Positions 2,898 to 49,991 of a stretch of DNA of 64,000 bases are shown here, one piece after another. The notes below the pieces were generated by a model that made no database searches, had not been told where the DNA came from, and saw nothing but the letters and a program-made list of their open reading frames with translations. A program made the position numbers and the translations under genes. The stretch is from Tritonibacter horizontis (GTDB lineage Bacteria > Pseudomonadota > Alphaproteobacteria > Rhodobacterales > Rhodobacteraceae): contig NZ_LPUY01000053.1 in assembly GCF_001518015.1 (NCBI RefSeq), positions 1 to 64,000 of the forward strand, read 5' to 3'. Position 1 is the first letter of the stretch; each line of letters starts with the position of its first letter.

Positions 2898-2917
2898 AAT
2901 TCAATGAGTCTGGAGCC
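2895..2917 (-). repeat. Right terminal inverted repeat of the IS
   Basis: Partner of the repeat at 2075-2096. Its outer edge coincides with the first base of the reverse-strand imuC stop codon. Confidence 0.85.
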
Positions 2918-8157: not shown

Positions 8158-8184
8158 AAGGGTATCATAACGCCAAAGCCGCAC

Positions 8185-8680: not shown

Positions 8681-9361
8681 TTAAAGACTCTTCAACCGGT
8701 GCTTCTCCAGCAATCCGGTAAGTATCTCGCGCGCCTGTTGGCGATGGGCGCGGTGAATGCGGCGCGCGGTTTCGGGGTCGCCTTTGAAAATTGCCTGATA
8801 GACGGCGCGGTGGTCCTCGTTGGACTGCACCGGGAGCGGTCGAATGAAGAGGGTTGAGGCCTTTGCCCGGCGGACCTGATCGCTCATCATCGCGACGATC
8901 ATTTCGACGCGGGAATTGCCGCCGAGCCTGACGAGTTCGGCATGGAACCTGTCATCCGCTTCCGCCCAACCCTCGAGGTTCTCGGCGGCGATCGCGGCAT
9001 CCATGTCCCCAATGGCGGCGTTCAGGCGCGCAAGCTCGTCTCTGGTATAGCCGATGGCCGCCGCGCGCTCTGCAGCCAAGCTTTCGAGTTCGGTCAGAAC
9101 GTCATAGATTTCGCGCATGTCGTCGGAGGAGACGGGGAGGATGCGGACCCCCTTGCGGGGCCGCATTTCCAGGAGGCCCTGACTTTCCAGGAGCAGTGCC
9201 GCTTCGCGCACGGGCGTGCGGGACATGCCCAGCCGTTCTGCCAGTTCCGTTTCCAGATGGTCGGATCCGGCTGCCAACTCGCCTGAAAATATCAGCGCGC
9301 GCAATTCCTGTACGGCGCGTTGCGCGTTGGAGTGGGTTTTCTTTTCCTTCAGTTCTACCAA
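8681..9361 (-). CDS. GntR-family (FadR/FCD) transcriptional regulator
   Basis: A 226-aa regulator with an N-terminal winged helix (LETELAERLGMSRTPVREAALLLESQGLLEMRPRKGVRI, about residues 35-75) and a C-terminal FCD ligand domain containing the metal-binding Asp/His set (DDRFHAEL, HRAVYQAI, HRAHRQQAR). I chose the TTG at 9361 because it overlaps the stop of the upstream dehydrogenase gene (9355-9357) and gives the usual family length. It is co-transcribed with two dehydrogenase genes and most likely controls them and the divergent TTT transporter, sensing a sugar acid or pathway intermediate. A dyad at 11567-11590 is a possible operator. Confidence 0.85.
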   Translation of the reverse strand: MVELKEKKTHSNAQRAVQELRALIFSGELAAGSDHLETELAERLGMSRTPVREAALLLESQGLLEMRPRKGVRILPVSSDDMREIYDVLTELESLAAERAAAIGYTRDELARLNAAIGDMDAAIAAENLEGWAEADDRFHAELVRLGGNSRVEMIVAMMSDQVRRAKASTLFIRPLPVQSNEDHRAVYQAIFKGDPETARRIHRAHRQQAREILTGLLEKHRLKSL

Positions 9362-10401
9362 GCAGGTTGCTCCAACGTGATTTTCCGGCCCGTCTCTGAC
9401 GAGGCATAAATAGCCTGTTCGATTTCGATCACTGTGAGGTAGTCGCGAACGGTGTTCTCCAGCGGGTCCGCCCCCAGAAGACCGGAAATCACATGGGCTT
9501 GCAAGGCATGGACGCAATCGCCGCCAAATCCGTCCCATGTATCGGCTGCCAGCAGTGGGGTCGTCGCTGCGCTGCCAAAGTGGCGCAGGCGAACCGAGCC
9601 GTCGCCATGAAGGGTGAGTGAGCCTTCCGTGCCCTCGAACCAGGCTTCGCCCATGGTGCGGCGCAGGTTGTCGGCGGCATGGTCGAGATGGCGATTGCCA
9701 TCAAACAGCGCGCGCACACCATTGGGGTGGTCAAACAGCACAAAGCCCGCGTCCTCGCCCTGGATCACCGGGTTGACCTGGCGCAGATCCGCGTAAACGC
9801 CGGTTGGATTTCCCAGGAGATAGCGGAAGGTATCGACCCAATGAACGGCCGTTTCGTGGATCAGGAAACGCTCCATCTCCTGAAAATAGGGCTGCCGGTC
9901 GAGATAGGCATCTGGGCCTTGTCCGTCGCCGGGACGCAGGCGGAATGTCACCTGCTGCAGCGTGCCAAGAAGCCCCTCGTTCAGGGCGGACTTGATGGTG
10001 CGATACCACGGCTGAAAGCGAAAATTCTCATGCACGACGATCACCGCGCCTGCGGCCTCAGCCTCGGCGGTGATCTTGCGGGCCTCGTCGAGATCGGTGC
10101 AGAACGGTTTCTGGCAGATCATATGGGTGACGCCATGGGCGAGGGCGGTGCGGATGGTGTCGGCATGGGCGACAGGCGGCAGAATAATGTCAAGGAGGTC
10201 TGGCTTTACGTCCTCCAGCATCGTCGCCAGGTCGTTGTAGGCAGGCAATCCGGTGGCTTCTGCGCGCGTGATGTCGCGGTTGCAGGAGGCGACGGCGATC
10301 GCGCCCTCCATCCGCGCCCAGCTGTCGTAGTGAAAGCGACTGAAGTAGCCCGCGCCGACGCAGGCGACCCGGATCGGCGGCCTGTGCGACCCGCCGGTCA
10401 T
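9355..10401 (-). CDS. Gfo/Idh/MocA-family NAD(P)-dependent dehydrogenase
   Basis: A 348-aa oxidoreductase. The Rossmann fold starts with VACVGAGYFSRFHYDSW (GxGxxS). The family EKP motif appears as CQKPF, with the catalytic Lys retained. The C-terminal alpha/beta domain has HETAVHWVDTFRYLLG with the usual catalytic-region His. Members oxidise sugars, inositols or sugar acids. Its stop overlaps the GntR start and its start overlaps the stop of the next dehydrogenase gene by 4 nt, so the three are one operon divergent from the TTT transporter. It may supply a 3-oxo or 2-oxo sugar acid for the OtnK/OtnC pair downstream. The substrate is unknown. Confidence 0.85.
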   Translation of the reverse strand: MTGGSHRPPIRVACVGAGYFSRFHYDSWARMEGAIAVASCNRDITRAEATGLPAYNDLATMLEDVKPDLLDIILPPVAHADTIRTALAHGVTHMICQKPFCTDLDEARKITAEAEAAGAVIVVHENFRFQPWYRTIKSALNEGLLGTLQQVTFRLRPGDGQGPDAYLDRQPYFQEMERFLIHETAVHWVDTFRYLLGNPTGVYADLRQVNPVIQGEDAGFVLFDHPNGVRALFDGNRHLDHAADNLRRTMGEAWFEGTEGSLTLHGDGSVRLRHFGSAATTPLLAADTWDGFGGDCVHALQAHVISGLLGADPLENTVRDYLTVIEIEQAIYASSETGRKITLEQPAW

Positions 10402-11489
10402 GCTGCAAAGACCGCGCGCATGACGGCGCTGGCGGCCTCTTCGGTGCTGGCGCTGCCGCCAAGATCGCGGGTCAGACGATCACCGCGCGCGACGACGTTT
10501 TCCACGGCTTCGCGCAAGCGACGTCCGTCCTCCAGAAGGGCAGCATTGTTGTGTTTCAAGCCGAGCCAATCGAGCATCATCGCGGCAGAAAGGATCATTG
10601 CATGCGGGTTTGCAACCCCTCGGCCGGCAATATCAGGGGCAGAGCCGTGGCAGGGCTGAAACACGGCCTGATGGAGGCCAATATCGGCAGAGGGCGCAAG
10701 CCCGAGGCCGCCCATAAGTCCGGCGCCGAGGTCGGACAGGATATCCCCGAACATATTCTCCGTCACCAAAACATCGAAGTCCCAGGGTTTTTGCACCATC
10801 CAGAGCGCGGTGGCATCTACATAGGCGTGATCGGCAATTAAGTCCGGGAAGTCCTTGGCAATGTCATCAAAGATCTGGCGGAAGAAGGCAAACGCCCGGA
10901 ACACATTGGCCTTGTCCACGCAGGTCACCCGACCCGGCCCCCGCCCGGTGGATTTGCGTCCCTGCGCCAGATCAAACGCAAAGCGGAACAGTTTTTCGGA
11001 TACATCGCGGGTGATGCGCAGGGTCTCGGTGGCGGCCTCCTGGGTGACTTCTCCGCGGCCTTGCGAGTAAAATAGACCTTCGGTGCTTTCTCGGATCAGG
11101 ACAAAATCGATTTCGCGATTGTCGGGCAGGTTCAGTGGGCTGGCCTGGCCGGGTTTCAAACGCACCGGGCGGACACCGGCAAACAGACCATAGGCCTTGC
11201 GCAGTTCGATCTGTGGCGAGATCTCAGTGCCGTCTGGGTAGCGGACATCGGGAAGCCCCATCGCGGAGAGCAGGATCGCATCCGCAGCCCCCGCCGATTT
11301 CAGCGAGGATTCAGGAAGCGACTCGCCCGTTTTTGCATAGTGCGCAGCGCCTGCGGGCAGCGTGGAGAAGCGCAGATCATATCCGCGCGAGGCTTCCGAC
11401 AGGCTGCTGAGCAAGGTGACGGTCGGTGTCATGATTTCTGGGCCGATGCCGTCGCCCTCGAATACTGCAATTTCAAACGTCTGGGTCAT
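10398..11489 (-). CDS. Isocitrate/isopropylmalate-family dehydrogenase (tartrate dehydrogenase-like)
   Basis: A 363-aa beta-decarboxylating dehydrogenase. Family marks are EGDGIGPEIM at the N-terminus, the substrate motif LIRESTEGLFYSQGR, the catalytic Lys in VTCVDKANVFR, and the metal/NAD region NMFGDILSDLGAGLMGGLGLAPS followed by HGSAPDIAG. The last two fit an NAD-dependent tartrate/isopropylmalate-type enzyme rather than isocitrate dehydrogenase. Start chosen at the ATG at 11489; a longer frame extends upstream but lacks family sequence. It is the first gene of the left-going operon. Its location in a sugar-acid locus argues against leucine synthesis. Likely substrates are tartrate, malate analogues or a tetronate; which one cannot be told. 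Confidence 0.85.
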   Translation of the reverse strand: MTQTFEIAVFEGDGIGPEIMTPTVTLLSSLSEASRGYDLRFSTLPAGAAHYAKTGESLPESSLKSAGAADAILLSAMGLPDVRYPDGTEISPQIELRKAYGLFAGVRPVRLKPGQASPLNLPDNREIDFVLIRESTEGLFYSQGRGEVTQEAATETLRITRDVSEKLFRFAFDLAQGRKSTGRGPGRVTCVDKANVFRAFAFFRQIFDDIAKDFPDLIADHAYVDATALWMVQKPWDFDVLVTENMFGDILSDLGAGLMGGLGLAPSADIGLHQAVFQPCHGSAPDIAGRGVANPHAMILSAAMMLDWLGLKHNNAALLEDGRRLREAVENVVARGDRLTRDLGGSASTEEAASAVMRAVFAA

Positions 11490-11549
11490 CTCTGACTGCG
11501 CCCCTTCTGTGTTTTTGATGGCCGCCAATAGGGAATGGTGCGTGCGGCA

Positions 11550-11590
11550 TTGACAGTGTGTTTTTTAATGCATACATAAATAAATGCAAT
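11550..11590 (+). promoter_or_regulatory. Sigma-70-like promoter with overlapping inverted repeat, TTT operon
   Basis: TTGACA (11550-11555) and TACATA (11573-11578) are separated by 17 bp. The -10 region lies inside an inverted repeat whose arms AATGCAT (11567-11573) and ATGCAAT (11584-11590) match in 6 of 7 positions. An operator over the -10 suggests repression, most simply by the GntR regulator encoded at 8681-9361. Confidence 0.6.
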
Positions 11591-11624
11591 AACAAACGCA
11601 ACACAGCTGGGAGGAGCTGACATC

Positions 11625-12632
11625 ATGAACAAGCTTATGACAGGAGCGCTGGCGGTTTGGGCGGCCACCGCGGTTTTCACTGGCGCGGCCAGCGCGCAGG
11701 AATATCCCTATCGTGACATTACCAATGCCGTGGTCTGGGGGGCCGGCGGCGGTACCGACTCGATCAACCGTATGATCATGGCCGAGATGGAGAAAAACCT
11801 GCCGGTGTCGATCAACGTGATCAACCAGACCGGCGGCGTTGCCGGGTCGAATGGCATGGTCTATGTCGCCAACCAGCCCGACGATGGGTATACGTTGGTA
11901 GGCCTGTCGGAATCCAACGTGACCGCCGCTGTGCAGGGCGGTTGGGATAAAAAATTCGATTTTTGGTATCCCTTCATCGTCGGCGGATCGCCTGATCTGA
12001 TTTCTGTACCGGCCAATAGCCCCTATTCCACCCTGACCGAGTTGGTAGACGCCGCGATGGCGGAACCTGGCTCCATTCCGGCAGCGGCAGGCGGCGCCGG
12101 CTCGATCCACCATTTGAATTTGCTGGCTCTCGAAAAAGGTTCAGGCGCCGCGTTCAAATTCGTGCCCTACAAGGGATCCGCGCCCGGACAGGAAGCAGCT
12201 ATCGCGGGCGAAGTTGCCCTGGTGGTCACCTCTCTTGCCGAACAGGCCGCGCTGATCGAAGGCGGGCAGCTCAAGCCGCTGGCGATGCTGACCGCAGACA
12301 GTGCCGAGATCGCGGGCTTCACGGTGCCCTCAGCTTTTGACAGCTATGCGGCCCTGTCCGAGGTATTGCCGCTCAAGCAGGCGATTGGATTTGCCATCCA
12401 CAATTCGGCCCCGGAGAACGTGAAGGCGACATTGGGCGCGGCCTTTGAAAAAGCCATGGCGTCGGACACTGTCGCAGAGTGGGCCAAGGTCAACAAATAC
12501 GACATCGGCGGCGAGCATGGAGCCGAAGCACAGGCGCTGTTTGCCAACCTCGAAAGCACCTTTGCCTACACCCTGAAAGATCTGGGCGCGGCAACTGTGA
12601 TGCCAGAAGACCTGGGCATCGAGAAGCCGTGA
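11625..12632 (+). CDS. tctC: TTT transporter substrate-binding protein
   Basis: A 335-aa periplasmic receptor of the tripartite tricarboxylate transporter family (Bug/TctC). A signal peptide ends around AASAQEYP (residue ~25). Family motifs follow: VVWGAGGGTDSINRM, INQTGGVAGSNGM, QPDDGYTLVG and VPYKGSAPGQEAAIAGEV. A strong ribosome binding site (GGGAGGAGC) precedes the ATG. It delivers a carboxylate ligand to TctAB. Since the operon continues with a sugar-acid kinase and aldolase, the ligand is probably a four-carbon or similar sugar acid rather than citrate. A hairpin follows the gene. Confidence 0.93.
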   Translation: MNKLMTGALAVWAATAVFTGAASAQEYPYRDITNAVVWGAGGGTDSINRMIMAEMEKNLPVSINVINQTGGVAGSNGMVYVANQPDDGYTLVGLSESNVTAAVQGGWDKKFDFWYPFIVGGSPDLISVPANSPYSTLTELVDAAMAEPGSIPAAAGGAGSIHHLNLLALEKGSGAAFKFVPYKGSAPGQEAAIAGEVALVVTSLAEQAALIEGGQLKPLAMLTADSAEIAGFTVPSAFDSYAALSEVLPLKQAIGFAIHNSAPENVKATLGAAFEKAMASDTVAEWAKVNKYDIGGEHGAEAQALFANLESTFAYTLKDLGAATVMPEDLGIEKP

Positions 12633-39257: not shown

Positions 39258-39698
39258 TCAACTGGCCTCCAGCCGCAATAACAGCCGTTTCGTGGCCGGG
39301 GTTTCGCACAGATCCTGCAGCGTATAATCGTCCAAGATCCGAAAGAAGGCTTCTTGCGCTCTCAGCAGCGCGCCGGTCAGTCCGCAGCCGGACGAAAGCG
39401 GGCAGGTGCCGCCATCGGCGAGCATGCAGTCCACAAGGCAGGTCTTGCTTTCGAGATCCCGCACCAGGGCCCCGATTCTGATGTCACCGGGCGGTTTGGC
39501 CAGCTGCAGCCCCCCAGACCGCCCTCGATTCGACAGCACGTATCCTTCCTGAGCCAGCCATTGGATGACCTTGGTCAGGTGGTTGTATTTCGCGTCATGC
39601 ATGTCGGCGATCTGGCGCGTTGTGAGCTTGTGCCCTTCTGCCACACCGAGGTGCATCAGAGAGCGGAGGGCGTAGTCTGTGAACATGGCGAGTTGCAT
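39258..39698 (-). CDS. nsrR: NsrR-type Rrf2-family NO-sensing repressor
   Basis: 146-aa Rrf2 regulator. The winged helix is MQLAMFTDYALRSLMHLGVAEGHKLTTRQIADMHDAKYNHLTKVIQWLAQEGYV. The iron-sulfur loop has three cysteines in CLVDCMLADGGTCPLSSGCGL as in NsrR (four Cys in total in this segment). NsrR's [Fe-S] cluster reacts with NO and derepresses NO-detoxification genes. IscR and RirA relatives differ in Cys spacing. It is divergent from the norSY-like operon with NsrR-like dyads between them, which strongly suggests that it controls that operon and itself. Confidence 0.86.
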   Translation of the reverse strand: MQLAMFTDYALRSLMHLGVAEGHKLTTRQIADMHDAKYNHLTKVIQWLAQEGYVLSNRGRSGGLQLAKPPGDIRIGALVRDLESKTCLVDCMLADGGTCPLSSGCGLTGALLRAQEAFFRILDDYTLQDLCETPATKRLLLRLEAS

Positions 39699-39725
39699 GG
39701 GGAGAGACTAGCAGGTCTTAACTAG

Positions 39726-39767
39726 CATTATAAGCGCGAATTTAAATTGACATTATAAATGCGAATT
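39726..39767. promoter_or_regulatory. Tandem NsrR-like operator half-repeats between nsrR and norS
   Basis: Two direct repeats, CATTATAAGCGCGAATT (39726-39742) and CATTATAAATGCGAATT (39751-39767), match in 15 of 17 positions and are spaced 25 bp apart. The second, with its upstream base (39750-39762), fits the NsrR palindrome GYATTTNAAATRC with two mismatches; the first fits with three. Position between divergent nsrR and norS fits autoregulation plus control of the norSY operon. Confidence 0.65.
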
Positions 39768-39803
39768 ATATTGTGACCCCGCAATCAAGAGGTTCGAGGT
39801 CCC

Positions 39804-40307
39804 ATGCAATCACAAATCTTTCTTGTCAGCCTCGCGCTGATGTTTCTTCTCGCGCTGGTCTTTGTCCGGGGTGTCGTTGCGCCCGGCGCACCGTTGGAGG
39901 CCACCCGTGTCAACCGCCAGCGCAGCTGGCTTCTCTGGGGGCTGGTCATGATCGGGCTTGTCCTGTCCGTGGCGTCGTTGCGGAGCTGGCCCCATCGCGC
40001 CGCCGGAGCGGAGGTTCTGGTGGTCAATGTGTCCGGTGGGCAGTGGTGGTGGGAGACCGACACCACCGAGATCCCGCTGGGCCAAGAGGTGGAGTTCCGT
40101 GTCACAACCGAGGACGTGAACCACGGGTTGGGCATCTATACCGACGATATGACCCTGATCACGCAGGTTCAGGTGATGCCCGGCTATACCAACACATTGG
40201 TCCATACATTCGAGCAACCGGGCAGGTTTCATCTTCTGTGCATGGAGTATTGCGGCGTTGCGCATCACGACATGGTCAATGAATTCCAGGTTGTGGAGGT
40301 CCAGTGA
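39804..40307 (+). CDS. norS: CuA-containing subunit II of a heme-copper NO reductase (NorS-like)
   Basis: 167-aa protein with two N-terminal membrane segments (about 5-22 and 42-60) and a periplasmic cupredoxin domain. All CuA ligands are present: His107 (VNHGLG) and Cys146, Glu148, Cys150, His154 and Met157 in LLCMEYCGVAHHDM, preceded by GGQWWWE. It accepts electrons from a c-type cytochrome and passes them to the catalytic subunit. The small size and operon order (subunit II, subunit I, SenC, membrane Orf) match norS of the norSY-senC-orf1 cluster of nitrifiers. The alternative is a B-type oxygen reductase subunit II. Confidence 0.75.
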   Translation: MQSQIFLVSLALMFLLALVFVRGVVAPGAPLEATRVNRQRSWLLWGLVMIGLVLSVASLRSWPHRAAGAEVLVVNVSGGQWWWETDTTEIPLGQEVEFRVTTEDVNHGLGIYTDDMTLITQVQVMPGYTNTLVHTFEQPGRFHLLCMEYCGVAHHDMVNEFQVVEVQ

Positions 40308-41776
40308 TGCGTACTCTGTCTCAAATCCCCGACAATGCAGCCCAGCAGAGCGCAACTAAAACCGCCGCGGTCATCAAGCTGTCCATCGGGCTAAGTGGCG
40401 TCGTGTTCTTGCTGATGATGATCTTTGGTCTGATCATGCGGGCAGCACAGGCCGGCTGGGTCGACCTGGACAACGCGCTGTTCTATCAGCTCCTGACCGC
40501 CCATGGCGCTGGCATGGTCGGCACCGCGACATTCTCGGGTGCGGCGATCATGTGGTATTTTCTGGCGCGGCACGTCGCATTGAATGCCACTGTTTACATT
40601 GCGTTTCTGGGCCTCTTTCTGCTGGGGGTCGTGCTGGTGCTCGGGTCGATCTTCATCGGCGGTTTCGGTGGCGCCTGGAATTTCCTGTTCCCCTTGCCGG
40701 CCCTGTCCGGGGGCATCTGGGAGGTGGGCGCGGCGGTTGCGTTCTGCCTCGGCTATATCTCGATCGGGGTGGGATTCTTGCTCTACTACCTTGAGGTCGG
40801 CTACAAGATTGCCCGCGCCTATGGTGGCTTGCTCGGTGGGTTGGGCTGGCGCTTCGTGTGGCATGGTGATGTGTCCCGCGCGCCGCCGCCGACAGTGATC
40901 GCCGCCGCCAGCGTCACCATCTTCAATTCCATCGGCATCATCTTTGGTGCGATCGTGCTGGTGGCGACAATCGTCAACCTGCTGTTCCCGGAATTTGCAA
41001 TCGATGCGCTGATGGCAAAGAACGCAATCCTGTTCTTTGGCCATGTCTTTATCAATGCCAGCATCTATATGGCCGTCACCGCCGTATACGAGGTGATCCC
41101 GGAGTATACCGGCAAGCCGTGGAAGGTTTCGCGCGTGTTCGTCATCGCCTGGGCTGTGGTCGTCATCTTTGTTCAGGGTGTCTATTTCCACCATCTGCTG
41201 CAGGACGTGAACATGCCGAAATGGAGCATGGTCGTCGGTCAGGTCATGTCCTATGGCTCGTCGGTCGTGCTGATCGCGGTCACGGTCTATTCCACCGCTG
41301 TTTATCTGAAAGGCGCGGCGATCAAATGGGACCTGAGCCTGCGCCTGCTGGTTCTGGGGGTGATCGGCTGGGGCGTCGGGACGATCCCTGCCTTCATCGA
41401 CGGTATGGTCGCGGTGAACAAGATCATGCACAACACCATGTGGGTGCCGGGACATTTCCACACCTATCTGCTGCTGGGCGAAGTCGCGATGGCCTTTGGA
41501 TTTGCCGCTTGGCTGGTGCGGGGACGCGCGATCCGCGAGACCTCGGCGCTCGACCGGTTTGCTTTTGGCGCCTATGTGGCCGGGGGGGGCGGGTTCGTGC
41601 TGATGTTCCTGTGGTCCGGGGCAAGTTCGATCCCACGCCGCTGGGCGGTGCATTATGCGCAGTGGCAATTGCAAAGCCAGTTGGCGACGGTGTTCGCAAC
41701 TGTGGTTGTGCTGGCAACGGCGTTGCTTGTTGCAGGCTACCTGCGCGGCCTTCTGCGCCGGGGGACCGAGCAATGA
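40307..41776 (+). CDS. norY: Heme-copper oxidoreductase catalytic subunit, sNOR-type (NorY-like)
   Basis: 489 aa from the ATG at 40307 (a GTG one codon earlier is possible), about 12 membrane segments. Metal ligands: low-spin heme His66 and His385, CuB His246, His295 and His296, high-spin heme His383 (MHNTMWVPGHFHTYL). Oxygen reductases read GHPEVY or GHPIVY in helix VI, with the cross-linked Tyr four residues after the CuB His; here the sequence is GHVFIN, so Asn250 replaces Tyr, and Pro and Glu are also absent. Loss of this Tyr is a mark of NO reductases in the superfamily. Together with NsrR control and the norSY-senC-orf1 gene order, NO reduction to N2O is the best prediction, without proof. 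Confidence 0.75.
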   Translation: MRTLSQIPDNAAQQSATKTAAVIKLSIGLSGVVFLLMMIFGLIMRAAQAGWVDLDNALFYQLLTAHGAGMVGTATFSGAAIMWYFLARHVALNATVYIAFLGLFLLGVVLVLGSIFIGGFGGAWNFLFPLPALSGGIWEVGAAVAFCLGYISIGVGFLLYYLEVGYKIARAYGGLLGGLGWRFVWHGDVSRAPPPTVIAAASVTIFNSIGIIFGAIVLVATIVNLLFPEFAIDALMAKNAILFFGHVFINASIYMAVTAVYEVIPEYTGKPWKVSRVFVIAWAVVVIFVQGVYFHHLLQDVNMPKWSMVVGQVMSYGSSVVLIAVTVYSTAVYLKGAAIKWDLSLRLLVLGVIGWGVGTIPAFIDGMVAVNKIMHNTMWVPGHFHTYLLLGEVAMAFGFAAWLVRGRAIRETSALDRFAFGAYVAGGGGFVLMFLWSGASSIPRRWAVHYAQWQLQSQLATVFATVVVLATALLVAGYLRGLLRRGTEQ

Positions 41777-42369
41777 GCCGCGCCGGGGCCTATACGCTGA
41801 CGGCGGTGGTTGTGGCTGCAACGGGGCTTTATGCGGCGACCGATGGTCTGCGCGCCCTGACAGCAGAAGCGGCGCGCCGGGTGCAGATACAAGAGACCCG
41901 GCCTGCGGTCCCGCCCTTTGTGGTGGAGGGCCTGCAGGGGCGCCGCCATGCGCTGCGCCCGGACTCAAACCAGGTGGTGATGGTCGAGTTCATCTATACC
42001 ACCTGTCCGACCATCTGTCAGACGGCGGGCGGCGATTTCGCCGCCCTGCGCGACCGGGCGGTTGACCGGGGGCTGCCGGTGCGGATGCTTTCCGTCAGTT
42101 TCGACCCGGCGGCTGACGGGCTGAGCGAACTTCGCGACTATGCGGATCGTCATGGGGCGGATGGCGACGTCTGGAGCGTGGCCCGACTGCGACCGGCGGA
42201 TCTGCAGGACGCATTGCGGTTCTTTCGGGTCAAGGCGGTTCCCGACGGATGGGGGGGCTACCAGCACAACGCCGCCGTATTGCTGATCGATCCGGATGGC
42301 CTTCTGGTGGCGGCTTATGACACCGGTGACTTTGACCGGATCCTCGCCCATGTGGAGCAGTTGTCGTGA
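41773..42369 (+). CDS. senC: SCO1/SenC copper chaperone
   Basis: 198 aa. An N-terminal membrane anchor, then a thioredoxin-like fold with the copper-binding CxxxC in YTTCPTICQTAGGDF and a distal His in GYQHNAAVLLID. SCO proteins load or reduce the CuA site, matching the CuA-containing subunit II encoded two genes upstream. ATG at 41773 overlaps the norY stop; its own stop overlaps the next GTG start. Confidence 0.92.
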   Translation: MSRAGAYTLTAVVVAATGLYAATDGLRALTAEAARRVQIQETRPAVPPFVVEGLQGRRHALRPDSNQVVMVEFIYTTCPTICQTAGGDFAALRDRAVDRGLPVRMLSVSFDPAADGLSELRDYADRHGADGDVWSVARLRPADLQDALRFFRVKAVPDGWGGYQHNAAVLLIDPDGLLVAAYDTGDFDRILAHVEQLS

Positions 42370-42932
42370 ACACGGTCCTTCTTTCGACGCTCTGTTTCGG
42401 CGCCGCATTGGTGCTTCAGCCGATGGCGCGGCTGGACCCGGTGGCGCATATGCTGCTGCAATATCCGGTGTTGGGGGTTTCGGGCTATCTGCTGGGGCTG
42501 AAGATGCCGACAGCGCCGGATCTGCGCGGACCGCTCCTGGTCCTCGGGATCACCTGCGTGGGGTTCTGGATGCTGCCGCGGTCCCTCGATGCGGCGCTCG
42601 ATAGCCCGGGCATGCATCTGGCGAAACTGGTCACGCTGCCGCTGTTGGCCGGCCTGCCGCTCGGGATGAGCGTGCCGCGTGTCGGCGCCGTGCTGCGGGG
42701 ATTTCTCAAGGCGCAGTCGTTGTCGATGCTCGGGGTGCTTTCGTTCCTTTATAGCCATGCGCCGATCCGTATCTGCAATTCCTATCTGATCGAGGATCAG
42801 CAGCGGCTGGGCGCGGGGTTCCTCTGGCTGGCGGGTGGGCTTTCGCTGCTTTGGGCGGTGCCTCTCTTTCTCGGGCATTCTCTGATGCCCGATCTTCTCC
42901 TCCAACGAAAGAAACATCATGACCTTTGCTGA
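42366..42932 (+). CDS. Membrane protein, Orf1 of the norSY-senC-orf1 cluster type
   Basis: 188 aa, about five hydrophobic segments. Notable polar residues lie in or near membrane segments: PVAHMLLQYPVLG, PRSLDAALDSPGMHLAKLVTLPLLAGLPLG and SHAPIRICNSYLIEDQQRLGAGFLWLAGG with a conserved-looking His, Cys and Asp/Gln set. It starts at GTG, overlapping the senC stop (GTGA). Function unknown; a role in metal or heme insertion into the sNOR enzyme is plausible from its fixed position. Confidence 0.65.
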   Translation: MNTVLLSTLCFGAALVLQPMARLDPVAHMLLQYPVLGVSGYLLGLKMPTAPDLRGPLLVLGITCVGFWMLPRSLDAALDSPGMHLAKLVTLPLLAGLPLGMSVPRVGAVLRGFLKAQSLSMLGVLSFLYSHAPIRICNSYLIEDQQRLGAGFLWLAGGLSLLWAVPLFLGHSLMPDLLLQRKKHHDLC

Positions 42933-43746
42933 CTCCGTCAATGAATTCGCGGGTGCTGCGCTGATCAAGCGGCAGAAACTGCGATCCGATCCGCTGGGCT
43001 ATCTCGTGTTGTCGATGATGGCGGGGGCCTATGTTGGCCTGGGCATTCTGTTGATCTTTTCCGTCGGGCAGGGGGTTGAGGCGGGCATCCGGCCGGTGGT
43101 GATGGGGGCCAGCTTTGGGATCGCGTTGATCCTGGTGATCTTTGCAGGGTCCGAACTGTTCACCGGTCAGACCATGTATATGACCCATGGCGTTCTGACC
43201 CGGCGCACCAGCCTGCGGGATCTTGGCGCCTGCTGGGGGGCGAGCTGGCTTGGGAACCTGCTGGGCGCAGTGCTGCTGGCGGTATTCTTTGTCTACGGGG
43301 GCGGTGGGCTGGTGCTGAACATAGGCGACACGTCGCTGCTGCACACGGTTGCTGAAAAGAAAATGCACGGCTCCGGGCTGAGTCTGTTTCTCAACGGGGC
43401 GCTGTGCAACTGGCTGGTCTGCCTTGCGATCTGGTCCGCGTCGCGGATCACCAACGAGATGGCGCGCATGGTGATCATCTGGTTCTGTCTCTATGCCTTT
43501 ATCGCGGCGGGGTTTGAACATTCCGTGGCCAATATGACCGTCTTTTCGGTCGCGCTTCTGTCGGATCATCCGGATACGATCACGACCGGTCTTGCCCTCA
43601 GAAACCTGGTTTTCGTCACCCTTGGCAATGTCTTTGCGGGCGTTGTGATCATGGGGGGCGGCTACTGGATCGCGGCGGGCCGACCCCTTGCACCCTCTAC
43701 GCCCGCCAGAGATGCCGCCGCCGACGGCCCCTCTCAGCCAGTGTAA
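42919..43746 (+). CDS. Formate/nitrite transporter family channel (NirC-like)
   Basis: 275 aa, six membrane segments, with FNT hallmarks IFAGSELFTGQTMYM, GALCNWLVCLAIWSA and AAGFEHSVANMTVF (the central His and narrow-pore residues). These are pentameric channels for formate, nitrite or similar anions. Start overlaps the previous gene by 14 nt, so it belongs to the norSY-like operon, where moving nitrite across the inner membrane would fit best. Formate cannot be excluded. Confidence 0.87.
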   Translation: MTFADSVNEFAGAALIKRQKLRSDPLGYLVLSMMAGAYVGLGILLIFSVGQGVEAGIRPVVMGASFGIALILVIFAGSELFTGQTMYMTHGVLTRRTSLRDLGACWGASWLGNLLGAVLLAVFFVYGGGGLVLNIGDTSLLHTVAEKKMHGSGLSLFLNGALCNWLVCLAIWSASRITNEMARMVIIWFCLYAFIAAGFEHSVANMTVFSVALLSDHPDTITTGLALRNLVFVTLGNVFAGVVIMGGGYWIAAGRPLAPSTPARDAAADGPSQPV

Positions 43747-43820: not shown

Positions 43821-44216
43821 ATGTCCATGAAAGTGACAACCCGTCTGTTTGCCGTCCTCGCGCTGGCTGTTGGTCCTGCATCGGCTGTTGTGGCCCAGGA
43901 TGCCGAGGCCGGGGCCAAGGTGTTCAAGAAATGTGCCGCCTGCCATGCGGTCGGAGAGGGGGCCGATCACAAGGTTGGTCCAGCCTTGAACGGCATCGTC
44001 GGCGCCCCGGCCGGGGCGATAGCAGGGTTTCGATACAGCACCGCCATGGTGGCTGCAGGCGAAGCGGGGGTGATCTGGGACGATGCGACCCTGGCGGCCT
44101 TTTTGACCAAGCCGAAAGACGTCGTTGCCAAAACAAAGATGAGCTTTCCCGGGCTGAAGAAGGACGAGGATCTGTTGAATGTGATTGCGTATCTGAAGAG
44201 CTTTCCCGACCGGTAA
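43821..44216 (+). CDS. Soluble class I c-type cytochrome
   Basis: 131 aa. A signal peptide is cleaved near VVAQD (residue ~26), then the heme motif CAACH (Cys38, Cys41, His42) and an axial Met107 in KTKMSFPGLK: a c2/c550-type periplasmic cytochrome. A good AGGAG lies upstream. It lies 74 bp after the FNT gene and ends in a terminator. It is a natural electron donor for the CuA subunit of the sNOR-like enzyme or for the cbb3 oxidase encoded on the other strand. Confidence 0.92.
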   Translation: MSMKVTTRLFAVLALAVGPASAVVAQDAEAGAKVFKKCAACHAVGEGADHKVGPALNGIVGAPAGAIAGFRYSTAMVAAGEAGVIWDDATLAAFLTKPKDVVAKTKMSFPGLKKDEDLLNVIAYLKSFPDR

Positions 44217-44327: not shown

Positions 44328-44498
44328 CTACCTGGCCGCTCCGGCGACGTCCTGCAGGGGTTGGTCCTGATAGGCCGCCAGCGCCAAGCGGATATGCCAG
44401 GCCTTGTAGGCGCCATAGGCGACAAGGAGGCTGGCGATCAGGACAAACATGAACCGGGCAAATCGCCGGCTTTGGCGGCCGCCCTCAGCCGTCGTCAT
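44328..44498 (-). CDS. 56-aa single-span membrane protein at the end of the cco operon
   Basis: Not an annotated family I recognise. A basic N-terminus (TTAEGGRQSRRFARF), one membrane span (about residues 16-32), then a short amphipathic tail ending QDQPLQDVAGAAR. Its ATG lies inside the ccoP 3' end (14-nt overlap), so it is translationally coupled. It is not CcoH, which is much larger. It could be a small accessory subunit of the cbb3 oxidase, like CcoM or CcoS in position but not in sequence. Confidence 0.6.
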   Translation of the reverse strand: MTTAEGGRQSRRFARFMFVLIASLLVAYGAYKAWHIRLALAAYQDQPLQDVAGAAR

Positions 44499-45351
44499 TG
44501 TTGGCCCACAGGACGTACAACACGATCATGCGGATTTCCTCCGGGCTGAGCCGCTCCTGCCAGCCGGGCATGACGCCCTGGCGGCCATGGATCAGCGTCT
44601 GTTGCAAGGAGGCCCGGTCACCGCCGTATATCCAGGCCTCATCAACGAGGCTGGGAGCGCCGGTTTCAAGTCCTCCGACCGCGCCGTCGTTGTGGCAGGC
44701 GCTGCAGTTCTCCGCAAAGAGTTCGGCCCCGATTGCCGCCTCTGTGGCATCATGTGGTGCCGCATTGAGGTGAAGCAGGTAGTCTGTGACGGCGTTGATC
44801 TCTGTCCGGTCCAGCATTTCGTCACGTCCGAAGGCCGGCATCTCGGCATATCGGGTGTCGTCGCTGGTGTGGTTGATCCCATGCAACACGGTCCACTCGA
44901 CCTCCTCCGGGCTGCCGGACCACAGCCAATGGTCGTCGGCGAGGTTCGGAAACCCCGGCTGTCCCGTTCGGTCACGTCCGTGGCAGGCGGCGCAATTGTC
45001 GCGGTAAAGGACGCTGAACTTTTGTTGGTAGGCCGATTTTAGCGCGGTATCATGGACCAGCGTTTCCAGATCGCCTTGCAGGATGGGGCCAAGCGCCTCG
45101 GTGCGTGCCCGGGCTCTGTCCGCGACGGCGGCCTCCACGGCGTCGCGCGATGAATAACCGAGAAAACCACGGGTATAGTCGCTGACATAGGGCCAGGCGG
45201 GGTAAAGCAGCCAAAGCGGCACGCAGACGCCGAAACTTGCCAGGAGCCAGATCCGAAATGCAGTCGGGACCGGCGTGTCGAGCTCTTTGAGCCCGTCCCA
45301 TTCGTGCCCCGTGGTGGGGCGGCCGCTATGGGGGTCGATGTCGGATTTCAT
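44485..45351 (-). CDS. ccoP: cbb3 oxidase diheme cytochrome c subunit CcoP
   Basis: 288 aa. N-terminal WDGLKELDTPVPTAF and one membrane span (about 33-51), then two cytochrome c domains with CAACH (Cys120, Cys123, His124) and CSACH (Cys216, Cys219, His220) and axial Met171 and Met261. Passes electrons from soluble cytochromes to CcoO. Overlaps ccoQ by 4 nt. Confidence 0.96.
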   Translation of the reverse strand: MKSDIDPHSGRPTTGHEWDGLKELDTPVPTAFRIWLLASFGVCVPLWLLYPAWPYVSDYTRGFLGYSSRDAVEAAVADRARARTEALGPILQGDLETLVHDTALKSAYQQKFSVLYRDNCAACHGRDRTGQPGFPNLADDHWLWSGSPEEVEWTVLHGINHTSDDTRYAEMPAFGRDEMLDRTEINAVTDYLLHLNAAPHDATEAAIGAELFAENCSACHNDGAVGGLETGAPSLVDEAWIYGGDRASLQQTLIHGRQGVMPGWQERLSPEEIRMIVLYVLWANNDDG

Positions 45352-45509
45352 TGCTGTATCTCCTCTGTGCTGAGGGGCGAGCGTGCTGCGGCGTCATAGG
45401 TGGCTTTGCGGCTGGGCCAGTAGACCCAGGCGACTGCGATGACAAAAACCACAAGAAGATAGATCGCCCCCCAGGTCTTGGAGAAGACAAGCACCGCGTC
45501 ATGGCTCAT
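45348..45509 (-). CDS. ccoQ: cbb3 oxidase small subunit CcoQ
   Basis: 53-aa single-span protein ([20 protein letters not shown] near residues 11-30) in the usual slot between ccoO and ccoP, overlapping both by 4 nt. The tail is [13 protein letters not shown]. Helps stabilise CcoP in the complex in known systems. Confidence 0.9.
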
Positions 45510-46225
45510 TGCGCATCCTCCCGCGGCAAAGTGGCGAGGGTACCGAGCATTTGTAGGTAGGCGACCAGGGCGTCCATTTCCGTCACCCGGTTGGGGTCGC
45601 CGTCAAAGTCGCGGATCTGTACCTTGTCGCCGTAGCGCTCGATCAGGTCGTCCTCATAACCGGCATCCGGGTCTGCCTGATTGATGGCGTCGCGTTGGGC
45701 CTGCGCGATCTGGGCGTCGGAATATGGCACCCCGACGCGCCGCAGTGCCGTGAGCGCCGCTGGCAAGGTCGCCGTATTCAGGGCCGTTGCCGCCAGGAAC
45801 GGATAGCCCGGCATGACCGAACCCTCGACCAGATCGCGGGGGGCGTTCAGGTGGGCGACATGCCAGGCATCGGAATATTTTCCGCCAACCCGGGCCAGAT
45901 CCGGCCCGGTCCGTTTGGACCCCCATTGATGGGGGTGATCGTACATGCTTTCGGCGGCCAGGGAATAGGGCCCATACCGGTCGACATCCGACCGTAAGGT
46001 CCGGATCATCTGGCTATGGCAGGCATAACAGCCCTCGCGGACGTAGATATCGCGTCCTGCCTGTTCCAGTGGCGTATAGGGGCGCATTCCATCGACCTGC
46101 TCCACCGTGTTCTCGATCGTGAAAAGCGGCGCGATTTCGACGATGCCGCCAATGGAGGCGACGAGCAGGATTGCGATGGCAAAGCCGACGGAGTGACGTT
46201 CCAGTTTCTGATGATGCGTGTTCAC
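45506..46225 (-). CDS. ccoO: cbb3 oxidase monoheme cytochrome c subunit CcoO
   Basis: 239 aa: N-terminal membrane anchor (about 13-33), heme motif CYACH (Cys66, Cys69, His70) in [13 protein letters not shown] and [31 protein letters not shown]; axial Met in VMPGYPFLA. Starts 3 bp after ccoN ends. Confidence 0.96.
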
Positions 46226-46228
46226 AGG

Positions 46229-47860
46229 TTATCCCCCCGGCTGTGGCTGCGGTAACGGCTGGCGATCCGGTTCGGGCGCAGCCAGACGGGGGCCACGCAC
46301 CGTCATGTAGATGTTGTAGGCACCGATCAACGCACCGAGCAGATAGAGGAACCCACCGATAGCGCGGGCGGTGTAGTAGGGACGCATGGCGTCCACCGTG
46401 TCGATGAAGGCAAAGACAAAGTTGCCGACGGGATCATAGGTCTGCCACATCAGCGCCTGTGTGATCCCGCTGTTCCACATTGCGCCGACGTAGATCAGCG
46501 TCCCGGTGAGGGCGAGCCAGAAATGCCAGGCTTCGAGTTGCAAGGAATAGATCCCTTCGCGGCGCCAGACCCAAGGCACCAGTTTGTACATTGCGCCAAA
46601 GGTGATGAACGCGACCCAGCCAAGCGCGCCGGCATGCACATGGCCAACGGTCCAGTCGGTATAGTGGCTGAGTGTGTTGACCGGGCGAATGGCGAGGAAG
46701 GAACCTTCGAATGTGGCCAGCCCGTAGAACAATACCGCCACCATCATGAACCGCACGGCCGGATCCGTCCGCACCTTGTCCCAGGCCCCGTTGATCGTGA
46801 GAATGCCGTTGAACACGGATCCCCAGCTTGGCACCAGAAGCACAATCGACATGGTCATGCCGAGATACTGAACCCAGTCGGGCAGGGCGGTGTAGTGCAG
46901 GTGGTGCGAGCCGGCCCAGAGGTAAAGAAAAGTGATCCCCCAAAAGCCAATGATCGACAGCCGGTAAGAATAGATCGGCCGGCCAACCGCCTTGGGCAGA
47001 AAGTAATACATCATTCCCAGAAACCCGGCGGTCAACAGGAACCCGACAGCGTTGTGGCCATACCACCACTGTGTCATTGCGTCCTGCACCCCGGCCCAGA
47101 GCGAATAGCTCTTGGGGGATGTGATGGAGACCGGCATGGCGAGGTTATTGACCACATGGAGCATGGCAATCACCACGATAAAGCCGAGGTAGTACCAGTT
47201 CGCGACGTAGATATGTGGCTCAGCGCGGCGTGCCAGGGTCCGCAGGTAAAGCACCAGATAGTTGATCCAGGCGAGTGTCAGCACCAGGTCGGCGTACCAT
47301 TCGGGCTCTGCGTATTCCTTGCCCTGCGTGATGCCAAACGGATAGCCGGTCACCGCCAACAGCACAAAAAGGTTGTAGCCGCCCAGCACGATCCATGGGG
47401 CGACTTCGCTGGCCAGACGCGCGCGGGAGGTTCGCTGGACGACGTAAAACGAGGTTGCGATCAGGGCGTTGCCGCCAAACCCAAAGATGACGGCAGTGGT
47501 ATGAATTGGACGCAATCGACCAAAGTTGGTCAGATCTATATCGCCGTTCAGCGCCGGAACCGCCAATTGCCATGCCAGCACGTCGCCGACGGTAAATCCG
47601 ACAATGCCCCACCCGAAACAGGCCAGAATGCCCCAACGGATCACGTCATCCTTGTAGGCCAGGGGGATGGCCGCTTCGGGATCGCTCAGGCGTGAGATCT
47701 GATGGAGGAGCCCCCAGCCGGCGACCAAGGCAATGATCCAGCCATGCAGCACATAGCCGATCTGCTGGCCCCAGCCCAGGATTGCGATACCAAGAAGCAG
47801 AACCGCGAACAGCACTATGGCCGTTAGACCGCGTTCGATACGTGTTGCCTGTTGAGTCAT
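46229..47860 (-). CDS. ccoN: cbb3 oxidase catalytic subunit CcoN
   Basis: 543 aa, 12 or more membrane segments. Ligands: low-spin heme His120 and His409, CuB His269 ([10 protein letters not shown]), His319 and His320 (AGSHHLHYT), and high-spin heme His407 ([11 protein letters not shown]). The [11 protein letters not shown] motif in the next helix carries the family's cross-linked Tyr, so this is a normal oxygen-reducing C-type oxidase. It reduces O2 at low concentration and shows some NO reductase activity in known members. A proline-rich C-terminal tail is unusual. No ccoGHIS assembly genes are in the window, so they must lie elsewhere. Confidence 0.96.
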
Positions 47861-48159
47861 GTGCTGCCCCCGGGTTGAGTGTCGCGCTGGCGATAGAACT
47901 CGATCTGAAAGGTCACCGCGTCACCCGGTGTCACATGGTGGGGCTCTTGCGGCAGGATCACGGCGCTGTCGCCTGCGGTCAGACGGATCGGGGTGCAGCC
48001 CTTGCGGGTGTAGGTCAATGCCCCGTCGCGCACCACGATCAGCCCCCAGGCGCCGACTTTGGTGCTGTGCTCTCGTAACAGGGCTGCGGGGACGGTGCCT
48101 TCGGTGAAAACCGGGCTTTCGGCGTATTTTTCGACGGTACTAGGAAGCGTGATCGTCAT
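47857..48159 (-). CDS. DUF1971 protein (YeaR-like)
   Basis: 100-aa beta-sandwich cupin-like protein: [48 protein letters not shown] and the C-terminal [19 protein letters not shown]. coli YeaR of this family is induced by nitrate and NO through NsrR, so the family is linked to NO stress by established knowledge, though its biochemistry is unknown. I used the Met at 48159; the frame runs further upstream only into the overlapping DUF2189 gene. Its stop overlaps the ccoN start. Confidence 0.82.
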
Positions 48160-48928
48160 GCTGTGTCTCTCCGTGAAAGAGGTCGCAGTAGGCATGCCAG
48201 GTGGCAAAGCCGAGCAGGGGGAACAGGAAAATGAGGCCGACGAACCCGGTGCACACCCCGATGAGGATCGCCCCAGAGACGGTGGCACCCCAGGTCACAG
48301 CCAATTTAAAATTATGGATCGTCGCGCTGAAACTCAGCGCCATGGCGCTGAAGCAGTCCAATTCGTGATCGACCAGCATCGGGATCGAAAAGGCCGAGAT
48401 CGCAAAGGTAAAGGCCGCAAACAGCCCGCCGATCAGGGTTCCCGTCACCACTGTGGCGATGCCCTGAGGGCTCTGCAGCAAGCTCAGCAACGTTTCGGTG
48501 AAACCGGAAAAAGGGACAAGGCCGAAGAAGACGGCAAAAATCAATGTCGCCGCACGCAGCCAGGTCAGCATCAGGACCATCAAGATGGCCCCGGCCAATG
48601 CAACCTGTCCCGGGGATGCAAGGCGGCCCTCCCTACCCATGGCGAGGCGGCTGATACGGTAGATCCCGACTGTGGCCGCCGGGCCAACCAGCATAGCGCC
48701 GGCCAGCGCGGGCAAGATCATCCAGCTTAGTCCCCAGTGCCAGAGCAGCGCGATGCCGCCCCAGCCCAGAAGGGCCAGCATTGTGCCATAGCTGATGGCT
48801 TGCGCGGGGTGAGATCTGAAATCCAGCCAGCCGCGTGCCAGCCAGCGCATGACCGTGGCAGCGGGGGGATCGTCAATCCGTCGTGGACGAGGGGCCATGC
48901 GGGTCTTTGGGTCCGGCTGGGCGGTCAT
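48140..48928 (-). CDS. DUF2189 integral membrane protein
   Basis: 262 aa, about six membrane segments (LARGWLDFRSHPAQAISYGTMLALLGWGGIAL; LSLLQSPQGIATVVTGTLIGGLFAAFTFAISAFSIPMLVD; WGATVSGAILIGVCTGFVGLIFLFPLLGFATWHAYCDLF). The DUF2189 family is often found near terminal oxidase genes. The C-terminal His-rich tail ([12 protein letters not shown]) might bind metal. Its 3' end overlaps the DUF1971 start by 20 nt, its start overlaps the preceding stop. Confidence 0.83.
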   Translation of the reverse strand: MTAQPDPKTRMAPRPRRIDDPPAATVMRWLARGWLDFRSHPAQAISYGTMLALLGWGGIALLWHWGLSWMILPALAGAMLVGPAATVGIYRISRLAMGREGRLASPGQVALAGAILMVLMLTWLRAATLIFAVFFGLVPFSGFTETLLSLLQSPQGIATVVTGTLIGGLFAAFTFAISAFSIPMLVDHELDCFSAMALSFSATIHNFKLAVTWGATVSGAILIGVCTGFVGLIFLFPLLGFATWHAYCDLFHGETQHDDHAS

Positions 48929-49383
48929 GACAGCCCCTTTGGCAATGGGAGAGGCCGGTTGGAATGTGTCATCCCGAGATAGCCCACGACCAGCAGCAGG
49001 CTGGTTTTGAGCAATTCCAGCCCAACAAAAAGCAAATGGTAGCTGCCAGCGCTGCGCGGTGCACCGGCCAGGATGGCGTCGGTGCGGGCTGCCAGTAGCG
49101 GCATCAGGCCGAGCCGTTGCAGTGCAAACACGGCAACGGCAAGCGACAGCAATGCACACAGATCCCTGCGAACCACAAAGGCGGCGAAGAGCGCCAGCGC
49201 CGCCAGTGCAACTTCGGCATATCCAAGCCAGTGAAACTGGGCCCGCCCCACCTGAAGCGCAAGACCGAGGTCCAGCGCCGGGACGGTGAATTTGGCCGGG
49301 GCAGCGATCAGGTTGCCGCCGAGGCAGACGCCCGCCCAGACCAAGACAGAAATCGGGAGAACCCCGCCAAGTCTATGTCGCAT
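48925..49383 (-). CDS. Membrane protein of unknown function, first gene of the cco operon
   Basis: 152 aa with four hydrophobic segments (about 9-27, 53-69, 75-93 and 118-137); His residues in RAQFHWLGY and SYHLLFVGLELLK recur at membrane boundaries. No family recognised. It overlaps the DUF2189 gene by 4 nt (ATGA) and so is transcribed with DUF1971 and ccoNOQP. Confidence 0.65.
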   Translation of the reverse strand: MRHRLGGVLPISVLVWAGVCLGGNLIAAPAKFTVPALDLGLALQVGRAQFHWLGYAEVALAALALFAAFVVRRDLCALLSLAVAVFALQRLGLMPLLAARTDAILAGAPRSAGSYHLLFVGLELLKTSLLLVVGYLGMTHSNRPLPLPKGLS

Positions 49384-49991
49384 TGTTTAGGGTTCCTTTT
49401 GCCGCGCGTACCCGGACAGCCAAGGCTGGGAGGTTTTGACCTTTCTTCGCCAGTGGCGCCGCCGGGTCGTCGGAGGCGTTGAAACATGGTTCGGATGCAA
49501 AGAAACCCCGCCTGGTGCCTGGCCGCCCTCTGTGGGCTGGCAGGACGGGAAAAGGGGCCGGATAGGGGAACGGATGCAGTTCATGATGGCTTACCTGGGA
49601 CTCTGTTTGGACGTGTGTCTATCGGCTTTAATTGGTATTTGCAATGCTATTTATGTGGGGCGATTGTGGCATGGCCTGGAACTGCGCTCTCGGGGCCAAA
49701 CAGGGGCAGGGTCCAACGCCGACGTCGGACTTGAAACAGGGAAGAGAGTTTTGATGGTCGGGCCACAAATGCCCGGTGGCCGGAGCGGGGAGCCGGCGGC
49801 GGGCGGTATTGAGGCCAGCCAAATGACACAAGGTATGATCAGTCCATCGCGAGATCACGGCAGGGTCCTCGTTGCGGGGATACTGCTATGACGCGCCACC
49901 GCGCCGGACTGTGACATCTCGCGCGATTTTTTTACCTGCCGGTCAGCGCACATGGCGTGGCGGATGGCATGGTCGGGGACTGTGATGGGTG
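49384..49991. other. Intergenic stretch holding the cco-operon promoter region
   Basis: 608 bp without a gene I can support. Frames in it (for example 49436-49891, plus) lack family sequence and domain-like composition. It should contain the promoter of the left-going operon starting at 49383, and it contains an NsrR-like dyad at 49635-49647. Confidence 0.5.
49635..49647. promoter_or_regulatory. NsrR-like dyad upstream of the cco operon
   Basis: GTATTTGCAATGC matches the NsrR consensus GYATTTNAAATRC at 11 of 12 defined positions. It lies 252 bp upstream of the first gene of the operon, farther than usual, so a long leader or coincidence must be considered. Confidence 0.5.

Follow-up and report, generated by a model that had tools for sequence, protein, structure and literature searches.

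A probable sNOR-type nitric oxide reductase operon and a cbb3 oxidase operon under one predicted NsrR-type regulator in Tritonibacter horizontis

A stretch of 64,000 nucleotides from the alphaproteobacterium Tritonibacter horizontis (contig NZ_LPUY01000053.1, positions 1 to 64,000; hereafter the window), from a genome of 4.86 Mb that is 99.79% complete, contains a gene cluster that probably encodes an sNOR, a heme-copper enzyme proposed to reduce nitric oxide (NO) to nitrous oxide (N2O), next to a divergently oriented regulator of the Rrf2 family. An earlier reading made from the letters only (the sequence-only reading) had recognized in it the order norSY-senC-orf1, that is CuA subunit, heme-copper subunit, SCO/SenC and Orf1, followed by a nitrite/formate channel (FNT) and a cytochrome c in the same direction, and the Pfam and NCBIfam assignments agree with this order throughout. 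The regulator, the genes and two predicted dyads lie as follows:

39258..39698, minus strand: Rrf2 regulator, NsrR-type, candidate NO sensor (Pfam Rrf2, 6.9e-32)
39720..39742, no strand: weaker NsrR-type dyad, predicted (7.7 bits, third in the 64-kb window)
39745..39767, no strand: main NsrR-type 11-1-11 dyad AATTGACATTATAAATGCGAATT, predicted (20.0 bits)
39804..40307, plus strand: NorS, CuA subunit II (Pfam COX2; CuA motif C-x3-C-x3-H-x2-M)
40304..41776, plus strand: NorY, catalytic heme-copper subunit I, 490 amino acids, assigned to the sNOR kind (Pfam COX1; Asn251; tree clade)
41773..42369, plus strand: SCO/SenC copper assembly protein (Pfam SCO1-SenC; CxxxC motif)
42366..42932, plus strand: Orf1, membrane protein, perhaps a copper-site assembly factor (weak profile matches)
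42919..43746, plus strand: FNT, NirC-like (Pfam Form_Nir_trans; PDB NirC, 4fc4)
43821..44216, plus strand: cytochrome c, candidate electron donor (Pfam Cytochrom_C)

Since within the series norS, norY, senC, orf1 and FNT every gene overlaps its successor, the five likely form one operon. That 39804-43746 is an sNOR operon belongs to the overall explanation argued for below, an NO-reducing sNOR within an NsrR regulon, which taken as a whole we consider rather probable; the operon probably extends to 44216 and takes in the cytochrome c gene. The CuA motif is present in the NorS of the window and in 86 of 87 sNOR loci overall (86 relatives and the window, near-duplicates included), the exception being locus L032, where norS of HTCC2083 was found only as a short piece (5474-5719), and the CxxxC motif is kept in all 85 SenC proteins found among the loci. 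The best PDB relative of the FNT protein is NirC (4fc4, 5.8e-70), and its score against NCBIfam NirC is 274 bits, under the cut-off of 293; the cytochrome c reaches 107 bits against NCBIfam c-550 CycA, under the cut-off of 240. For Orf1, the Pfam family DUF1404 appears below cut-off in 4 of 20 members, and a relationship to Caa3_CtaG was rejected (profile comparison probability 5%); since Pfam and profile matches are weak, a copper-assembly role of Orf1 is a guess. A genuine Caa3_CtaG gene stands after norS-norY-FNT in Thermomicrobium.

To which kind of heme-copper enzyme does NorY belong? Its closest solved relatives by sequence are ba3 oxidases, at weak similarity (best 1.1e-5), and the heme and CuB histidines are all invariant in the window NorY and its 8 first relatives. 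Four residues after the CuB ligand His247, at the position of the active-site tyrosine of O2 reductases, NorY carries Asn251, and asparagine is found there in 87 of 87 loci. According to PMC8756737 the residue at this position is Asn in sNOR and CuANOR and Tyr in O2 reductases (Table A4), Glu in cNOR/qNOR and Gln in eNOR. Typing by this residue sorted aa3 (Tyr), cbb3 (Gly or Ala), eNOR-like (Gln) and sNOR (Asn) enzymes. Moreover, a profile built from 9 NorY proteins gave at least 360 bits for sNOR-like rows and at most 50 bits for the other rows among the matches listed. In a tree of 54 heme-copper rows, built with A, B, C, eNOR, cNOR/qNOR and sNOR but no bNOR, gNOR or nNOR rows (one of two identical Thermus rows removed, the qNOR row trimmed), the 29 sNOR rows form one clade with support of 100/100 that includes the NorY proteins of R. 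pomeroyi, N. halophila and Thermomicrobium. The B, A, eNOR and C rows each form a separate group, and the cNOR/qNOR rows also fall outside the sNOR clade, whose position relative to A and B is poorly supported (72/36). The 6 B-type rows group apart at 100/98; NorY, having Asn and not Tyr at CuB-His+4 and clustering outside these rows, is not a member of the B (ba3) type. In a pairwise alignment ba3 Tyr237, Tyr244, Ser309 and Thr312 correspond to N251, V258, V321 and I324 of NorY and ba3 Tyr248 and Thr315 are retained, so that 4 of these 6 residues of the proton pathway (K-pathway) of ba3 are replaced. For sNOR, Table A4 of PMC8756737 describes no conserved proton channel. The AlphaFold model of NorY has 12 long helices (predicted local distance difference test score 85.6, predicted template modelling score 0.90), and the structure search with it points to a general oxidase fold only. 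Judged by the clade shared with R. pomeroyi and N. halophila, Asn251, the complete CuA motif and the gene order, NorY belongs to the known sNOR kind and is an ordinary but rare member of the family, which would reduce NO. The probable sNOR identity put forward in the sequence-only reading is thereby supported, and in the tree it had called for NorY lies outside A, B, C, eNOR and cNOR/qNOR, bNOR not being represented.

The regulator has as its best solved relative NsrR of S. coelicolor (5n07, 2.6e-24), the next other protein following at 7.8e-8, and its D8, C91, C99 and C105 are invariant in 26 of 26 aligned Rrf2 proteins; these are presumably the residues that ligate the [Fe-S] cluster in S. 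coelicolor NsrR. For its predicted binding sites a 23-bp palindrome model (11-1-11) was trained on 30 non-redundant Rrf2/norS intergenic regions, with the window left out, and yielded the consensus AATAGGCATTTnAAATGCCTATT, which is close to the classical NsrR consensus. The model reached a total of 601.5 bits (60 restarts) versus 232-258 bits in 8 mononucleotide shuffles (20 restarts). Across the 64-kb window the dyad at 39745 scores highest, a dyad at 49630 second and the one at 39720 third, and the best site beyond these three has 6.0 bits. A degenerate form of the pattern, allowing up to 2 mismatches, finds 6 sites in the whole 4.86-Mb genome, of which the sole one without mismatch is 39745, the sole one with 1 mismatch is 49630 and the remaining four have 2 mismatches each; a reversed control pattern has none. 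Scores of 15 bits or more occur at 75 positions within 1.06 Mb of locus DNA. A site of at least 11 bits is found upstream of norS in 28 of the 30 training loci and in 11 of 11 other loci with divergent Rrf2, many of them near training loci, and three loci were too short to be scored. Thus the NsrR-like dyads that had been noticed between the regulator and norS stood up to this analysis. In L029, L053 and L055 the dyad stands before Rrf2 itself. The norS dyads of L068, L069, L083, L100 and L105 lean to the classical NsrR consensus, and the first three of these loci have no linked Rrf2.

The second-ranking dyad leads to a second operon on the opposite strand (memb152-DUF2189-DUF1971-ccoNO-P, 44485-49383), which encodes a cbb3 oxidase:

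44485..45351, minus strand: CcoP, island cbb3 (TIGR00782 over cut-off)
45506..46225, minus strand: CcoO (TIGR00781 over cut-off)
46229..47860, minus strand: CcoN, island isoform (TIGR00780 over cut-off)
47857..48288, minus strand: DUF1971 cupin (open reading frame as listed, true start probably later; Pfam DUF1971)
48140..49159, minus strand: DUF2189 membrane protein (open reading frame as listed, true start probably near 48927; Pfam DUF2189)
48925..49383, minus strand: memb152, membrane protein of 152 amino acids, first gene of the second operon (no Pfam match)
49630..49652, no strand: second-promoter NsrR-type dyad, predicted (18.7 bits, second in 64 kb)

This dyad is located 247 bp before the start codon of memb152 and about 10 kb from the Rrf2/norS gap. 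Of 87 loci, 11, the window among them, have memb152 close to sNOR. At this second promoter, which was never used for training, a dyad is present in 14 of 16 testable cco clusters: those of the window, L033, L039, L040, L068, L101, L113, L121, L026 and L170 to L174, the site of L172 being weaker (10.4 bits). The 16 include fresh stretches from five set-aside genomes plus L026, and 13 cco loci that end before the first gene were set aside. Two further loci were left uncounted: in L051 the cluster comes after FNT in the same orientation, and the norS promoter may serve both, and in L083 ccoN is 492 bp away from the norS dyad, which sits in the shared region. The first gene of the cco cluster in L033 and L040 encodes a cytochrome c and has the site in front of it, and in L068 and L101 the dyad region serves both directions. 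In a tree of 18 linked and 8 unlinked ccoN copies, a single clade (89/99, not starred) unites 16 of the linked ones; the linked copies of L083 and L101 stay outside it, and the second ccoN of the window genome falls among the unlinked copies; by this tree the island cbb3 oxidase is an isoform separate from the other cbb3 of the genome. Furthermore, since a congener, G682 (L176, G682:C31:54500-68500), keeps Rrf2, a dyad of 19.1 bits and trHb-DUF2189-DUF1971-ccoNOP in the absence of norSY, the cbb3 half is separable from the sNOR half. Taken together, the dyads suggest that one predicted NsrR-type regulator governs both the sNOR and the cbb3 operon. This bears on an argument of the sequence-only reading, that NO regulation implies reduction of NO rather than O2: it is a weak step, because the O2-reducing cbb3 oxidase at 44485-49383 shares the predicted regulator and NO control alone therefore cannot prove NO reduction. 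The case for NO reduction rests instead on the active site and on genomes whose only recognised NO reductase is sNOR.

Which genomes are these? The four heme-copper genes of the host encode aa3, two cbb3 and NorY, and a search of its genome found no NirK over cut-off and no match to NirS, cNOR/qNOR or NosZ. A pathway survey covered 39 norY-bearing genomes (locus L035 lies outside it) and found NirK over cut-off in 11, NosZ in 25 and cNOR/qNOR at 1e-10 in 23; cytochrome d1 matches, counted only below 1e-100 because the search also picks up NirS relatives and other propellers, are present in 15. Of the 16 genomes in which no cNOR/qNOR was found, 8 had their heme-copper genes over cut-off typed. 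In five of the eight, sNOR is the only recognised NOR-type enzyme: the window genome, Bradyrhizobium sp. G715, which has NirK over cut-off, N. halophila G724 with a NirK-like match below cut-off, and G703 and G705, which carry NosZ. An eNOR-like enzyme stands beside sNOR in the other three (G328, G131 and G372), and in none of the eight was there a further heme-copper gene as which bNOR, gNOR or nNOR would show. The nirS-linked G328 had been a candidate for an sNOR-only genome and was rejected, because the contig also encodes a Q-type (eNOR-like) enzyme. At 2401-12000 of its locus L029 (G328:C4:1-12000), running into L149, about 10 kb contain sNOR, a gene of the cytochrome cd1 type and the Q-type enzyme with a CuA gene.

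How widespread is the arrangement? Own genome counted, norY was detected in a single genome out of 18 in the genus, in 8 of 394 in the family (E 1e-30) and, as a strong match, in 2 of 289 in the class, where 9 further weak matches include eNOR-like, cbb3-type and A-type enzymes and three untyped ones. When one genome from each of 84,980 species was scanned, 226 relatives were confirmed, and 80 of them were retained. Gene neighbourhoods were compared in the 65 of 87 loci with at least 3 kb to the left and at least 4 kb to the right of norY (window included, near-duplicates kept): NorS is linked in 65, SenC in 64, Orf1 in 63, Rrf2 in 42, FNT in 39, DUF2189 in 20, ccoN in 19 and group III truncated hemoglobin in 15. 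A ccoN match of L059 (27 bits) lies inside NorY and was dropped from this count. Rrf2 is divergent upstream in many alphaproteobacteria and downstream in several gammaproteobacteria, and FNT follows orf1, stands inverted upstream or, in Thermomicrobium, adjoins norY. Within the genus the stretches flanking the island match other species and norSY does not. In plasmid pW43B of Parasedimentitalea marina norY is interrupted and unannotated (L121, about 9990-11439).

The closest counterpart is the sNOR island on the megaplasmid of R. pomeroyi DSS-3, which has the same order Rrf2 / norS norY sco orf1 FNT cytc, shares the adjoining ccoNOQP-DUF2189 operon and carries dyads before norS and before trHb-DUF2189-ccoNOQP. 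It differs in the place of the cco operon, which is found on the side of Rrf2 and starts with a truncated hemoglobin gene, and in having nitrite reductase and cNOR-like genes on the same megaplasmid. Also on this megaplasmid, a haoB-annotated gene and a multiheme cytochrome (L114, 1719-4343) are located about 13 kb from sNOR, with cytochrome c maturation genes between the haoB-annotated gene and the sNOR genes. The genus of R. pomeroyi, 'Silicibacter', is on the published list of sNOR hosts (see PMC8756737 below). The sequence-only reading had held sNOR enzymes to be scarcely characterised outside a few lineages; the presence of sNOR in this group is not new, as 'Silicibacter' is already listed in Table A4 of PMC8756737. 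With the norSY-senC-orf1 cluster of N. europaea (NE0683-86; PMC4940428) the window shares gene order, CuA subunit and active-site Asn, and NorY of the ammonia oxidiser N. halophila falls into the same clade. What sets the window locus apart from that of ammonia oxidisers is its flanks, with a NirC-like channel, a cytochrome c and a divergent NsrR; nitrification genes were not seen in the window, where no search was aimed at them. The bNOR/qCuANOR of Bacillus azotoformans shares CuA and the active-site Asn (PMC8756737, Table A4), and its cluster likewise has senC and a protein of six transmembrane segments and was equated with sNOR (PMC3475470); later work sets bNOR apart from sNOR and states that the Bacillus CuANOR/bNOR is biochemically characterised and sNOR only proposed (PMC11388526). 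In Nitrosococcus oceani an NsrR (Noc2967) is tabulated near sNOR (Noc2969-2971; PMC3772326). The Rrf2-type NO repressor and 11-1-11 type dyad resemble the NsrR regulons of Rodionov et al. (2005; PMC1274295), which reported NsrR absent from alphaproteobacteria except R. capsulatus E1F1, whereas the predicted targets in the window are sNOR and cbb3. The open-access literature, searched by term, gave no account of an NsrR regulon that joins sNOR and cbb3 among the papers listed; the part for which no precedent was found is thus the conserved two-operon NO regulon, sNOR and its presence in the group being known.

To the genes, family memberships, dyads and dyad conservation, which can be read off directly, a mechanism can be added that we regard, with an NO-reducing sNOR operon and a cbb3 operon under one NsrR-type repressor, as the best and a fairly likely explanation. 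The NsrR-type [Fe-S] repressor would keep the sNOR operon and the opposite cbb3 operon off through the 11-1-11 palindromes, and NO would damage its Fe-S cluster and thereby release both. A c-type cytochrome could then pass electrons to CuA of NorS, and NorY would turn two molecules of NO into one of N2O at its heme-CuB site, from which the O2-reductase tyrosine is missing. SenC, perhaps with Orf1, may help to load the copper sites, SenC assisting CuA, the NirC-like channel may handle nitrite by uptake or export around NO turnover, and the island cbb3 isoform may keep O2 respiration going. Since the host has no recognised nitrite reductase, other NOR or NosZ, the likely role there would be removal or respiration of outside NO at low oxygen. 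It could be imagined further, with about even chances, that Rhodobacterales have a dedicated NO-respiration regulon, in which a local NsrR co-induces sNOR, its nitrite channel and a separate cbb3 isoform, in many cases joined by DUF2189, DUF1971 and group III truncated hemoglobin, and which would let cells reduce NO and respire O2 at the same time; the cbb3 half would be NO-adapted and able to exist without sNOR, and sNOR would be a true NO reductase even where recognised denitrification genes are lacking.

Several points weigh against this explanation. No nitrite reductase that could supply NO was recognised in the host. The NsrR-type sensor of the sequence-only reading holds as to its best relative, invariant Asp8 and three Cys and divergent position, but the protein scores 100.6 bits against NCBIfam NsrR (PRK11014) for a cut-off of 182, with RirA close at 92.4. 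Where Rrf2 lies elsewhere, only 3 of 12 loci have the dyad upstream of norS, and where no Rrf2 is linked only 8 of 30 do, so that not every member of the sNOR family is under NsrR control. In Sphingopyxis, also an alphaproteobacterium, proximal cco genes are repressed by NO (PMC6472365), the opposite of the induction predicted for the island cco. Finally, NorSY could be a high-affinity, NO-tolerant oxygen reductase that NsrR induces for low O2 when NO poisons other oxidases, an alternative that we consider unlikely. It would suit the cbb3 oxidase in the same predicted regulon, and the alternative oxidase (AOX) of Vibrio fischeri is reportedly under NsrR, which would be a precedent for an NsrR-controlled oxidase. 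Moreover, the best 50 structural matches listed for NorY are all O2 reductases with no NOR among them, and PMC6967387 makes the case that sNOR of N. europaea could be an oxidase of high affinity and points out that the glutamates of NorB are missing from NorY, while also citing indirect evidence for NO reductase activity of the Nitrococcus mobilis sNOR. Against an oxygen reductase speak the replacement of the active-site tyrosine in every locus and of most ba3 K-pathway residues, the tree, which puts NorY apart from A, B and C, and Bradyrhizobium, where NirK occurs with sNOR as the only recognised NOR.

A second alternative is that NorSY handles NO otherwise, for example by oxidising it at CuB to nitrite that the NirC-like channel then moves. 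The linkage of this channel in 39 of 65 loci, in several arrangements and in Thermomicrobium, would fit, but the two genomes that carry NosZ and have sNOR as their sole recognised NOR agree better with N2O formation and we know of no heme-copper enzyme that has NO oxidation to nitrite as its main reaction, so that this reading appears very improbable. Least likely of all is that the island is a remnant or silent in this host and the regulon real elsewhere, as the rarity of norY in genus and family and the interrupted norY of one plasmid relative might hint, given that the window genes are open, the active-site and CuA motifs conserved and both dyads kept.

Whether the substrate of sNOR is NO or O2 is openly disputed (PMC6967387), and the two-operon NsrR regulon offers a direct genetic handle on sNOR function in the tractable R. 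pomeroyi DSS-3. It also raises a fresh question, namely what purpose the induction of a cbb3 oxidase by an NO sensor would serve; this is a paradox because cbb3 oxidases are said to be strongly NO-inhibited (PMC6472365, citing Arjona et al.) and the Sphingopyxis cco genes are NO-repressed. Surveys that annotate sNOR genes as cytochrome oxidase may in addition miss sources of N2O. NorY of R. pomeroyi is annotated as cbb3-type subunit I, and two rhizobial proteins (L156, L157) annotated as b(o/a)3 subunit 1 lack the usual CuB motif of the search expression. A further link to Rrf2 is found on a Thermus thermophilus plasmid (L160, 2423-5660), where genes for an Rrf2 regulator, a DUF542 protein and an AraC-type ligand-binding protein come after that of a Q-type (eNOR-like) enzyme, which bears the annotation cytochrome oxidase.

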